DNA from: Acarospora socialis
Taxonomy: Eukaryota > Ascomycota > Lecanoromycetes > Acarosporales > Acarosporaceae
Direction of reading: 5' to 3'
Assembly: GCA_025617375.2 (NCBI GenBank)
Contig: JAMYGW020000004.1
Location: 2,418,001-2,482,000 of the forward strand
Length of the DNA: 64,000 nucleotides
Below, in pieces: positions 1 to 15,887 of the stretch. A program made the position numbers and the translations under genes. The notes under the pieces were generated by a model, which was not told the origin of the DNA, made no database searches, and worked only from the letters and a program-made list of their open reading frames with translations. How positions within the stretch are numbered: position 1 is the first letter of the stretch; each line of letters begins with the position of its first letter.

Positions 1-69
1 TCACATTGTTCATCATCAGCAACAATGCTTTCTAAAGATTTCAATCATTTAAGAATTGCAAAGAAAATT

Positions 70-470
70 CAGATTGATGGTGTGTCTGTTTTGTTCTCTT
101 GTGACTATTGTGCTCATTGCAGCATCAATTGTTTTGTAATGAAATCTTGATCAAAATGCAATAAATGTACTTGCTGTGATCACTCATATATCAATGTATT
201 GTGAAAGTCTCTCAATAGAACTTGTCTTTTGCTTCAAAAGAAAATAAGTAAAGCAAACAGCAAATTGACAGTTAAGCATGCTGAGCTTGCTGCACTCTTC
301 TCAAAAGTTGTACATCTTCAGAAAATGCTGAATCAAACAGACTGTTGTGCTTCACAGAAGACTGACTGTCTTGCTGTTGAACTTAATAGTGATAATGATG
401 AAACTGAGAATGAAGATTCTCAAACAATGTTACAATTTATTGACTTCATGTTGTCATTCTTCTGAGCTAA
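70..470 (+). pseudogene. Decayed Cys-rich/coiled-coil ORF at gypsy 3' end (antisense to pol)
   Basis: Plus-strand translation from about 108 gives a C-x2-C start, a further Cys, a short Val-Met segment and a K-C-x2-C pair (interrupted by TGA), followed from 229 by a 78-residue open stretch rich in Lys, Ala, Leu and Gln that looks like a coiled coil. It lies immediately downstream of, and antisense to, the chromodomain end of the minus-strand gypsy element. A diverged second copy with the same order lies on the minus strand at about 6,430-6,860, beside the second gypsy fragment. Small Cys-rich coiled-coil ORFs of this layout are, from memory, common hypothetical proteins in repeats of filamentous fungi. 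Function is unknown. The duplicate in the same relative position supports it being part of the element rather than chance. Confidence 0.6.
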
Positions 471-3400
471 TGTTGACTTTTTTTCTCAAAACATTGAAGT
501 ATTCTTGCACAGTTCTTGAGATTCTCTCTGAATTTTCAGATATTCTCTGAGATATCATAATCTTTTCATTTTATGAAATAGTGAACTTTCTCACTAATCA
601 TTCTCTTTTCTAGAATGTTCTCAACTTCATATTCTTCTTTGAATTTGACAGATATTTCAGTGATTTGAAGTGATATGAACTGATCACAATGCTGTAACAT
701 GAATGCATGAAATACTGAATGTATTTTCATTTTCTTGAGTAAGTCTAGCTCATAACTTAACTCTTTGATGTTTCATATGATCTTGAATGATTCAATGCTC
801 TTGTTCTCTAGCTTTTTGCTTTTTTTCTTAGTTCTTATATTATTCATTTTCAAGTATATCTTTTCTTCTTCTTCAAATAATTTTGTCTCTGTCATTTGTC
901 TTGTCTGCTGTTCAATTTGTTCTGTTAAATCTTGATGCAGTTTTTTCATCTGAGCAATATTCAAAATCACTTTCTGACTTTATGATTCATGTTCTTTAAA
1001 ATCTTGTCATATCTTTGAGTTATAGTTATAATTCACATAGAAAGATGTTCCTTTCATGATTTCATTTTTTGCATTGTTGTACACAAACTGTGTCATTGAC
1101 AACAGTCATACTCAGTCATTCTGATTCTTGTTGACATAGTGTTTCAAGTACATTTTTATCATTTAATTCATTCATTTGCTCTGCTCATTCATCTGTAAAT
1201 GATATGCTGTTGATATCTTGTGTTTTATTCTGAATTCTGCTGTAAGCATTTTTCAAAATCTGCTTGTAAACAGCTTGTCTCTGTCAGTAATAAACTCTTT
1301 TGATAGTCTGTGATTGCTAATCAATTCTTGTAGTATCATATATGTCAGTATTGATGCTGTCACAGTTTCTTTGAATAAAATGAACATTGTGTACTTGATC
1401 AATCTATTCACTATGATTAATATACTGTCAAATCTCACTCTTCATGTCAGATTCTTTGATGATGATAGCTTCATAATAAAGTTCATGATAATTGACTTTC
1501 ATGATGCATCTGATGTGTCTAGTTGTGTTACTTCATCATATTGTTTATCTTGATTGATCTTATTTTTTTGACATGAATTGCACACAGCAATCATCTTGAT
1601 GATTTAATTTCTAAAATTACTAATATTGCATCTTCTTCACATTAGATTCTCAGTGCATTTAACTTCTAAATGTTCATTAACTTTGTTATAGTGACACATC
1701 TTGATGAGTTTTTCATCTGTTAAGAAAACTTACTTTATCTTGTACATTGCTGCTAAGTTCTTTGTGAGAACTCTGTTGTTGTCTTTGCTGAGAATTTCAA
1801 CATGTACTGTTTGTACATCTTCATGATCAGATCATCTACTCAAGACATTCACTTCATCATTCTCATTACTTTTCTTGTAATGAATCTGAAATTCATAGTC
1901 TGCTAACTGCTCTGTTCAACAAATCTGTCATTGATTAAGTTGTTTTGTCATTGTAAAGTTTCTTAAATTCTTATGATTCATATAGATCTAAATCAGCTTG
2001 TCTGTTTCTGCAAGATAAGATCTTCAATCTTGTAGCACTTCTACTATTGCAAGAAGTTTCTTGTCATGAATCTTATATTTTTTCTTGAATTCTGATAACT
2101 TTCTAGATCAGTATGCTATAAGTCTCTGTCACTTGTTCTCAATCTGATACAAACATGCTTTTACTGTGAAATTTGAAGTATCAGTTTTCAGTATCTTCTT
2201 GTATGCTGAATTGAGTATTCTCAGATGTGTCATTTCACTAAGACTTTTCTTTAATATGTGAAATGCATTCTTCTGCTCTTGATCTCAATATTATTTTTTG
2301 CTTTTGTGTGTCAAATGTGTCAGTGATTCTGCAATTCTTGCATAGTTTGATACAAACTTTCAATAATAGTTCATTAATTCTAAAAAGACTTGTACTTTCT
2401 TGATTCATTTCAGTGTTAATCAGTCTCTGACTACTTTTATCTTCTTTGAATTCTTCTCAATCTGTTCAGATTGAATCACATAGTCTAGAAACTTGACTTT
2501 CTTAATTTCAAATCTGTTTTTTGATTTTTTCACATATAAGACTCTCTCATTGAGCTTTGTCAGTATCTTGTGCACATATTCTTGATGCTTCTCAAGATCT
2601 TTTGAATATATCAGAATATCATCAAGATATGTGATCATAAAATCATCAAGATACTCTCTCAACATGTCATTGATTAATCTCTGAAAGATGACTAATGTAT
2701 TTTTCAATTCAAATAACATAACAGTGTACTTATAATGTTCATATCTTATTCAGAATGCTGTCTTTCATTTTTTATCTTCTTTCATTCTGACTTGATAGTA
2801 GATGTCTTTGAGATCTAAACTTGTGAATCACTTAGTCTTGTCTAATCAGTCTTGCAACTCTTCTATCAGTGATAGAGAATAACTATCTTGATGAGTTATC
2901 TTGTTGAGTTGTCTGTAATCAACACATAATTGTTTCTTGTCATTCTTCTTTGATACAAACAGAATTGAATATTCTGTTGATGATTTTGATGATTTTATGA
3001 ATTCTCTCTTAAGATTCTCATCAAGATAAGTTCTAACTTTCTTGAGTTAATTCTTGCTCATTGAATACAATGATATTCACTTAAATTGCTTTTCTTTCAA
3101 TAGCAGTATTTTGTGATCTCATGACTTATGCTCTGATAAGCTCATTTCTGATTGTTTGAGAATTTTGTATGCATTTTTGACTGTGCATATTTCTTTTGTA
3201 ATTCAATTGATTCTTGAATTCTTTTTGTGCAATCAAGGCATTTCTAGCATCACATCATATTCAATTGATTTCATAACATTGAACATTATCTCTTGTGAGT
3301 TTTCAAGAATTAAAACTTTCACACAGATTTTCTTGTCAATTCTTTCAATGATTTCATTTGTCATTTGTATGTTGAATGAACAGTGCACTCACTGTGTCTT

Positions 3401-14543: not shown

Positions 14544-15606
14544 TGTCTTTAGATACTGACATGCAACACTGACTTTTTTATAATTTAAGATGTCAACATA
14601 GATTCATGAAATATAGTAAAAAAATGCATTTATTTCAGCATAAATCTGAAAATCTTACATACTCAGCTTATTGTAATCATCAATTGATCAGATATAATTG
14701 AAATCTGAAATGATGTATTTGTTGCAGTAATACTGTAAATTATTTATATGATGTTGATGATCTTCTGAATTGAGTTCTTTAATTATAACAAAGAAATAAT
14801 TTCTGTTTTTATGTTAGTTACTAGAAACAAATATATGTATATTGTATGACTTAGATATAGTATCTGACAATAAAATGTTCTTTTATACAAAAGTATGTAT
14901 ATAATATACTTCTTTCATAGTCATCAATAATTTCTGTATTTAATTCTTCAAGAATTATTCTTTTAAGATTTTCATCTGTCTCTGTTCAATCAAAAATGAA
15001 GATTTTTTGAATAAATTTTAATTTTTTGTGTAATCATATAAGATTTATAGATTTTAAACTATATTTTTTTTATTTCATAATATGTAGAATAGTTTTATCA
15101 TTAACACAAGAGATAAAGAAAAGAACAGTTATACAAAGAGTAAGTTGAGAAAAGTTATCTGTCTTGATTTTTTTTGATATTTATCAGTTTTTGAGACATC
15201 ATTGAATTGTACAAGCATTATACACAACTTTGTGCTCTTCTTCAAATAACTAAGATATTTTTTTTGCAGTATGATTTTTCTGAAAGAGCACAATAATTCA
15301 GTTTTTATGAGAAGTAAAATCAATAAAACATCTATTGTTTTTCATTTTGCTGTCTTTGTATAACAATGTTTGATTATTGAATATAGTTAATAATATGAAT
15401 TTGTGTGTACATATATTAATGCAGTTTCATAAGCAACAGTTTTACATAAAATATAAAATTCTTACTACAGATTCAGACTTTTCAAAGTTTTATATTGTAC
15501 AACATATATTCATTATTAACATATGCTCAGCAGAACTCTGTTGTACAATATCATTCATTTATAGAAACTATATATATTAATATATATTATGCAATTCACA
15601 TCAACA
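14544..15606. other. AT-rich stretch with no recognisable element
   Basis: About 1.06 kb of very TA-rich sequence with the same lack of CpG and CpC. The small ORFs at 15,129-15,323 (-) and 15,377-15,580 (+) show nothing recognisable. It is probably older decayed repeat. Confidence 0.5.
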
Positions 15607-15687
15607 GATTCAGTAATGTAAGCAATAACACATAAATCATGTAGTACTACATTTTCTAGAATCTGAGTTCAAATCTCAGCTGAATCA
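15607..15687 (+). other. tRNA-like relic at the edge of the AT block
   Basis: The segment starts GATTCAG and ends CTGAATC plus one A, a perfect 7-bp acceptor pairing. An ATGT/ACAT D-stem encloses a 10-nt loop, and a CTGAG-TTCAAAT-CTCAG T-arm with 5-bp stem and 7-nt loop is intact. No convincing anticodon arm is present in the 29 nt between (one palindrome, ATGTAGTACTACAT). It could be a mutated tRNA gene, or the tRNA head of a SINE; chance is possible. Confidence 0.35.
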
Positions 15688-15887
15688 TTCAAGAATATTG
15701 TGTACAAGTTTTACAATAATGTGAAACATGCACATGCTGTCCTTGAACTATCATTTTGTTGTATGTTACAAAATTCAGAAAATTTTCTTGGTTGTTGTTA
15801 AGTCAGTCTCAGTTGCCTGTAACACCTGTCGATTGGCTACTGACAACGCCGTTGAAGTCGTCATATCAATATACTAACATCGCCCAG

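Follow-up and report, generated by a model that had tools for sequence, protein, structure and literature searches.

Repeat-induced point mutation (RIP), described in Neurospora, Leptosphaeria and other Pezizomycotina, converts C to T in both strands of repeated DNA and leaves stop-ridden transposons in sharply bounded compartments. According to the passages on sequence context in PMC5496416, its targets rank CpA > CpT > CpG > CpC in N. crassa, and CpA about equal to CpG, followed by CpT > CpC, in T. reesei. A survey of 1,239 fungal genomes published in 2025 describes, in its account of shared targets, RIP-like defences as having a CpA preference in common (PMC12543289); its 130 strongest genomes belong to four classes, as that account lists them without Lecanoromycetes, and a figure legend places Lecanoromycetes among the classes in which k-mers are enriched in non-coding DNA. 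Here we analyse a 64,000-nucleotide stretch (the window) of the lecanoromycete Acarospora socialis (assembly GCA_025617375.2, contig JAMYGW020000004.1, positions 2,418,001 to 2,482,000; C4:2418001-2482000 in our contig numbering), at the start of which lies a nest of retroelements devoid of CpG and nearly devoid of CpC, together with copies of its elements and of an unrelated long interspersed nuclear element (LINE) elsewhere in the genome (31.15 Mb, 38 contigs). Like RIP, the process changes C to T on both strands, affects repeats, leaves transposon stops and sharp compartments, and occurs in a genome with RID- and DIM-2-like genes. In contrast to RIP, its contexts rank CpG > CpC >> CpT ~ CpA, nearly reversing the published orders, with CpC, the least favoured RIP context of N. 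crassa and T. reesei (PMC5496416, same passages), far above CpA.

Other described systems share parts of this pattern. The CpG-biased hypermutation of basidiomycetes (Microbotryum, at TpCpG, and Rhizoctonia) and of Tuber likewise converts CpG to TpG or CpA, in the sections of PMC4352252 and PMC4014442 on these biases, whereas here CpC is lost almost as completely and no strong requirement for a 5' T is apparent. Signatures named in the relevant section of the ten-genome survey are CpA, CpT and CpG only (PMC4352252). In Table 2 of PMC4014442, heterozygous C/T single-nucleotide polymorphisms of Rhizoctonia solani AG8 are listed at one per 214 bp for CpC and only one per 370 bp for CpG, while the accompanying text calls the bias CpG and has genes and repeats affected alike; this density at CpC is the nearest printed hint of CpC in the literature covered and possibly a relative of the preference seen here. 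The DIM-2-dependent mitotic mutator of Zymoseptoria tritici also joins a DIM-2-type methyltransferase to C>T change in repeats, but mutates CpA although CG, CA and CC are methylated, as described in the methylation results of PMC8016269, and CpA is among the slowest contexts in A. socialis. Methylation induced premeiotically in Ascobolus has a RID/Masc1-type protein, action coextensive with the repeat and a CpG preference (PMC4165359, in its remarks on Ascobolus), yet consists of reversible methylation, whereas CpG mutation is complete in the copies scored here. The lichen fungus Cladonia rangiformis shows a RIP peak near 16% GC in the composition data of PMC12542154; the block described here has 26-31% GC and little TpA. 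In the portions of the open-access literature on CpC and RIP that we covered, no description of a repeat-limited, CpC-directed mutator was found.

Between window positions 1 and 15730 there is no CpG (310 expected from base composition), CpC occurs twice (positions 1050 and 9078; 338 expected) and GpG three times (79, 3237 and 5508; 284 expected), whereas CpA/TpG (1242/1233), CpT (1062) and GpC (316) are plentiful. A preliminary description of the window, made from its sequence, had noted both the lack of CpG in about 15.7 kb and the abundance of CpA, CpT and GpC; it was right that CpC and GpG are scarce, although the count is five and not 'about four', and right about the block, which runs slightly beyond the end it gave at 15780, to a repeat edge at 15813-15825. 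Odds ratios over seven 2-kb segments of positions 1-14000 are 0.00-0.02 for CpC, 0 for CpG, 1.44-1.68 for CpA and only 0.51-0.75 for TpA, against 0.75-1.06 for CpG and 0.80-1.09 for CpC in the 24 2-kb segments of 16001-64000. Host DNA elsewhere is not depleted either, as a general lack of these dinucleotides would demand: five of six arbitrary 5-kb genome samples are host-like (per-kilobase odds 0.55-1.26 for CpG, 0.78-1.06 for CpC). The sixth, judged by composition, is free of CpC and CpG (together CpS) throughout, with one CpC or GpG in 5 kb. Two more 5-kb samples were picked in LINE-rich places; one is normal throughout, and the other is normal as far as a repeat edge and CpS-free past it. 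By the standard RIP indices the block is RIP-negative, with a product index of 0.69, a substrate index of 1.55 and a composite index of -0.86, against thresholds of >1.15, <0.75 and >0 in the index definitions of PMC11412873.

Mutation context in gypsy and LINE copies

Copies of the gypsy-type element that opens the window were scored against a little-mutated relative in the same genome (L006; GC 48%, CpG odds 0.79), with which they share 70-76% identity in nearly gap-free alignments of about 2.4-2.5 kb; one fragment aligns over 1.9 kb at 68%. Scoring covered 27 copies, 21 full and six less mutated (L009-L014), and omitted L006 itself, L008, and L035, L038 and L039 (<1800 aligned bases). In the full copies, none of 2147 reference CpG sites is kept; 40% now read TG, 40% CA and 9% TA, so that most sites have been hit once, on either strand. 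CpC is kept in 0.7% of cells and CpA in 65%, with CA>TA at 16% against 9% for TA>CA, and CpT>TT at 26% against 11% in the reverse direction. The six less mutated copies also keep no CpG (0/610) but retain 17% of CpC, and CpG therefore goes first. The base 5' of the target matters much less than the base 3' of it: across the 27 copies, C>T fractions are 0.64 for ACC, 0.70 for CCC, 0.69 for GCC and 0.77 for TCC. Former CCG has become CTG in 176 of 622 cells of the full copies, the first C being spared once its neighbour has turned into T, and the ratio of CTG to TTG at these sites gives a CpG rate about 1.4-1.8 times that of CpC per strand. A cross-check on the ratio of TCA to CTG fits in the full copies (1.20 against 1.27 expected) and misfits in partial ones (0.64 against 1.36).

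Codons tell of the same preference. Conserved gypsy Trp codons, which the preliminary description had read as TGA in the window, are TGA in 103 of 125 cells of the 21 full copies and still TGG in one, and its remark that Gln codons survive in many places holds equally, CAA being unchanged in 48 of 104 cells and CAG in 75 of 126. TGA makes up 190 of the 265 stops in full gypsy copies and 59 of the 61 in partial ones (the other two being one TAG and one TAA). Among the 150 RVT_1 matches listed in the genome there are 418 TGA, 21 TAG and 60 TAA, totals tallied by hand, as were those for RVT_2 below.

The same RVT_1 search revealed a LINE with many stop-free copies, whose alignments are independent of L006. 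Twenty copies of a 753-bp reverse-transcriptase stretch gave 19 comparisons against one copy (L045), with 157 C>T changes, 24 T>C and seven transversions in all. C>T affected 116 of 798 CpC, 28 of 114 CpG, seven of 2501 CpA and six of 1729 CpT, that is, 144/912 for CpC and CpG together against 13/4230 for CpA and CpT (Fisher p about 1e-95), with an odds ratio of about 60 for CpC against CpA and with CpA and CpT some 40-50 times slower than CpC. The copies share descent, so distinct sites were counted as well, and 42 of 48 CpS sites are mutated in at least one copy, compared with 10 of 223 CpA or CpT sites. Longer pairwise comparisons agree: over 3 kb, L069 differs from L068 at 54 of 159 CpC, 5 of 10 CpG, 10 of 506 CpA and 8 of 393 CpT (20 T>C, five transversions), and over 2.3 kb L070 differs from L068 at 78 of 127 CpC, 3 of 6 CpG, 11 of 381 CpA and 9 of 299 CpT (15 T>C, seven transversions). 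Because some near-identical LINE copies differ at CpC and little else, the mutation process has been active recently. The CpS-preferring cytosine mutator that the preliminary description had proposed can thus be seen by copy alignment in two unrelated element types, gypsy and LINE, with which the RVT_1 stops agree, and the copies of these two do not differ mainly by CpA-to-TpA changes, as they would under the outcome it had named as fatal to its proposal: CpG and CpC change first and CpA is far behind. That repeats in this genome mutate first at CpG and CpC is, in our judgement, practically certain.

Repeat edges, strands and methyltransferase genes

Three edges between repeat and host DNA were examined (in the window, in L067 and in L031), two of which are sharp. 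At the window edge, copies of the last repeat stop at 15813-15825, and 5-17 bp farther out, at 15830, comes the first CpG; in L067 the nine longest matches start at 3039-3045 and the last CpG stands at 3034, about 5 bp outside. Searches with these two edges return several common genome places, and the two elements therefore share about 37 terminal bases. CpC or GpG returns in the last 85 bp inside the window repeat (15741, 15790, 15816 and 15825) and is likewise present, with no CpG, within L067:3044-3119 inside the edge; over these last 80-85 bp it is as though the targeting of CpC faded earlier than that of CpG. At the places examined mutation is confined to repeats, and the edges are better explained by recognition of the repeat itself than by chromatin that spreads.

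Both strands are mutated, the share of TG at reference CpG sites ranging from 0.41 to 0.71 per copy over the 27 gypsy copies. Outcomes differ between copies: at 70 of the 93 CpG sites seen in at least 15 copies the TG share lies between 0.1 and 0.9, from which we conclude that the copies were largely hit independently. The skewed remainder (eight sites below and 15 above this range) fits common descent or site preference.

A PF00145 profile search of the genome returned four matches at three loci, in line with the suggestion in the preliminary description that RID and DIM-2 homologues be looked for. The first locus (L002/L004) encodes a RID-like protein in two open pieces, with one PF00145 domain and a long N-terminal part; the match crosses a single TGA in a short stretch that begins gtgagt and ends ag, which we read as an intron. 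Its closest proteins are of the same type, those with organism names coming from Pleopsidium flavum and Blastenia crenularia (both Lecanoromycetes), and it is on these relatives and on motifs that we call it RID-like. The second (L001) is DIM-2-like, with a PF00145 match, a DNMT1-type catalytic domain and a sub-threshold BAH match; its best solved relative is 9bap (E 1e-191), which we take to be Neurospora DIM-2. The third (L003) is DNMT5-like, with 7r76, named Rad8, as best solved relative (E 3e-67), a pairing of Rad8 and DNMT5 names that also appears in part of PMC7862722. To judge from these genes, candidates of both kinds, RIP-type and maintenance-type, are present.

Weighing the explanations

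Taken as a whole, the best reading, and one we hold to be probable, makes the block a nest of retroelements shaped by a RIP-like process, in which a mutator would recognise repeated DNA and turn C into T on both strands in the order CpG > CpC >> CpT ~ CpA. Its parts are not equally firm. That the repeat is sensed, and not chromatin, is highly likely; that RID is the effector is a fair presumption, favoured by the sharp repeat edges and by the rule of the 3' neighbour. The RID-like methyltransferase would then find repeats and set the context, with methylation of DIM-2 or DNMT5 type at most secondary; we infer that its action precedes meiosis and that C is deaminated, whether directly or by way of 5-methylcytosine (5mC). 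Compared trait by trait with RIP, the changes are C:G to T:A on both strands with few others, they are limited to repeated DNA (two sharp edges and one looser, host DNA of the window and five of six arbitrary samples normal) and a RID homologue candidate (L002) is present, but the preference for CpA and the enrichment in TpA are missing, CpA being mutated slowly and in old copies. Because this preference was tested and is absent, the process, which works like RIP, is a variant and not a member.

Several observations weigh against this reading. TAG (13) and TAA (62) are found among the stops of full gypsy copies, and 23 of the 150 listed RVT_1 matches are stop-free over their matched length, from which it follows that not every repeat was caught at once. 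The gypsy rates are approximate since L006 is not the ancestor of the copies (against it, T>C runs at 7-10% and transversions at 3-5%), and TGA stands in 6 of 30 partial-copy cells where L006 has CAA, as would be seen had L006 itself lost CpG at these codons. At the third edge, L031, the repeat starts near 678 and the last CpG lies at 603, about 75 bp outside, and CpC persists to 729, about 50 bp inside. A single RIP event in Neurospora leaves strand-coherent runs; in the 27 gypsy copies, agreement of strand between neighbouring sites is barely above chance (mean z 0.57, p<0.05 in four).

The largest of these counterweights is the copia-type element. Among the 148 RVT_2 matches listed there are 423 TGA, 41 TAG and 570 TAA, an excess of TAA over TGA opposite to that of the RVT_1 set (60 against 418). 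The little-mutated copia relative (L007) is too distant from the window element for scoring, and only the two copies in the window were compared with each other: over 1865 aligned positions, about 83% alike, they show 269 transitions and 17 transversions, including 110 CA/TA differences, 103 CT/TT differences and 40 in CA/TG pairs, which are the trace of former CpG. CpA and CpT are therefore mutated as well, and their sparing is only relative. The statement of the preliminary description that CpA is spared stands in that relative sense, as in the LINE, and fails as an absolute one. These changes could represent the slow arm of the same mutator, at work after CpG and CpC were exhausted, a reading that fits because CpA and CpT are some 40-50 times slower than CpC in the LINE; by our estimate, when 99.3% of CpC is lost some tenth of CpA would be gone, near the net gypsy values. 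A second process behind them is possible. The copia counts thus soften the sparing of CpA and leave our confidence as it was, because the slow arm fits the measured rates.

Two processes that add up, with deamination of 5-methyl-CpG kept by DNMT5 or DIM-2 accounting for CpG and a separate RIP-type or DIM-2-dependent step for CpC, form an unlikely but substantial rival. In its favour, the genome has a DNMT5-like gene, DNMT5 is regarded in the remarks of PMC7862722 on Cryptococcus as maintaining CG methylation in that fungus, and CpG is mutated faster than CpC and nearer to the repeat edge; the methylation results of PMC8016269, moreover, place the 5mC of Zymoseptoria transposable elements at CG, then CA, then CC. 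Yet the CCG outcomes are roughly fitted by one relative rate (in full copies, not in partial ones), losses of CpG and CpC end near the same edge, and the mutation results of the same study have methylated CGs not mutating at high rates where CA did (PMC8016269). Deamination of CpG only, of the basidiomycete 5-methyl-CpG type, is rejected, with CpC kept in so few gypsy cells (0.7%) and mutated at 116 of 798 positions in the LINE.

Plain deamination of 5mC guided by heterochromatin, of the DIM-2 type and with no sensing of repeats, would account for the choice of retroelements as targets and for the DIM-2-like protein with its DNMT1-type catalytic domain. We consider it very improbable: at two of the three places the edges lie within about 5-17 bp of the repeat ends, whereas RIP-triggered methylation tends to pass repeat borders in the discussion by the authors of the truffle methylome (PMC4165359), and CpA, the DIM-2-dependent target in the mutation results on Zymoseptoria (PMC8016269), is mutated only slowly here.

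Canonical RIP at CpA with later decay, or ancient AT-richness with no mutator, might be suggested by the AT-rich repeat DNA, the RID-like gene and the CpA>TpA changes that copia copies do carry. With TpA depleted (0.51-0.75) instead of enriched, CpA>TpA at 7 of 2501 LINE positions against 116 of 798 for CpC, and less mutated relatives in the genome showing CpG and CpC lost first, this is refuted for the gypsy and LINE families and retains hardly any probability. Editing of retroelement complementary DNA (cDNA) by an APOBEC-like enzyme, which also favours CC and would strike retroelements, has a negligible chance of being right and is refuted by context and strand, since APOBEC3G acts on a single cDNA strand, at the 3' C of CC, whereas here the 3' base decides, the 5' base matters much less and both strands of each copy are mutated (TG share 0.41-0.71).

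Codon use in the LINE and elements of the window

The LINE copy L068 (C8:204286-207288) keeps an intact open frame of 1000 codons with five CpG in 3 kb, and was compared, as one copy against one gene, with a host gene of 1120 codons. The share of C among third-position pyrimidines of L068 falls from 52% before A and 38% before T to 9% before C and 1% before G, against a much milder slope of 60, 59, 45 and 39% before A, T, C and G in the host gene. NCG makes up 0 of 134 NCR codons (46% in the host gene) and NGG 4 of 55 with Trp excluded (54%), and Arg is written with 28 AGA and two AGG against four CGN. The synonymous sites of L068 thus seem to have reached equilibrium under a mutator with this context, with the protein kept. 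Selection may be responsible, or plain mutation pressure on a lineage still transposing, both of which need long exposure. The LINE is a candidate example of a transposon that coexists with the mutator by its choice of codons. Copies free or nearly free of stops cluster in stretches of 74-145 kb each (C1:2654838-2799451, C14:11456-85392 and C10:186970-265574); 5 kb sampled from the C1 stretch (L066) proved to be host-like, with normal GC and long open frames.

We lean slightly towards the wider proposition that a repeat-sensing defence with nearly reversed RIP specificity has been active long enough for the LINE to persist by way of synonymous sites emptied of CpG and CpC. If true, an arms race between defence and transposon is written into codon usage, and the whole system would go unnoticed in surveys that seek RIP by CpA. 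Genomes of this kind may have escaped notice, since common RIP indices read the block as RIP-negative. With CpC mutated so much more readily than CpA, it becomes testable which protein sets the context of repeat mutation.

The elements that make up the window are listed in Table 1. Besides the gypsy element of the window, the genome has at least 19 near-full copies with 82-85% identity to it (20 of 582 candidates scored), and the RVT_1 match of the window element (2480-2950, minus strand) contains four TGA stops and neither TAG nor TAA. The second, inverted gypsy fragment lies at C4:2423775-2424414 and is listed as minus among the copies. For the copia element at least 14 near-full copies and further partial ones exist (17 of 742 candidates scored); its RVT_2 match (12807-13508) has no CpG and holds five TGA, one TAG and two TAA.

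Table 1. Features of the window, with positions counted from its first nucleotide
Feature	Position	Strand	Basis
CpG-free, nearly CpC-free nest of multi-copy retroelements	1..15825		Dinucleotide counts; repeated over most of its length
Gypsy-type long terminal repeat (LTR) element, hypermutated	1..5500	-	Repeat search of genome and RVT_1 match
Second, inverted fragment of the gypsy family of 1-5500	5775..6414	+	Matches element positions 483-1123; inverted repeats I2 and I6
Inverted copy of the 5' part of copia 9121-14536, 83% alike	7272..9092	-	Inverted repeats I1, I3, I4 and I5
Copia-type LTR element, hypermutated	9121..14536	+	Flanking 211-bp repeats (D1), 86% alike
Further repeated element	14745..15825		Copies stop at 15813-15825; end coincides with end of CpG depletion
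Gene-rich host DNA, CpG and CpC normal	15830..64000		Dinucleotide odds, open frames

Genes in the window are fungal, and the first organism-named relative of its exportin-T comes from Lobaria immixta (Lecanoromycetes); together with the relatives of the RID-like protein, this makes a lichen-forming fungus likely. Within the host part, three 201-bp tandem repeats with 92% matches (54085-54692) sit inside an open frame resembling an ankyrin-repeat gene, in a 2-kb segment with CpG odds of 0.75, a short tandem duplication that has apparently not been hit. Elsewhere in the assembly, a stop-free integrase-core match (L005; C30:15338-15613) with 68% GC looks like bacterial DNA, from an associate or a contaminant.

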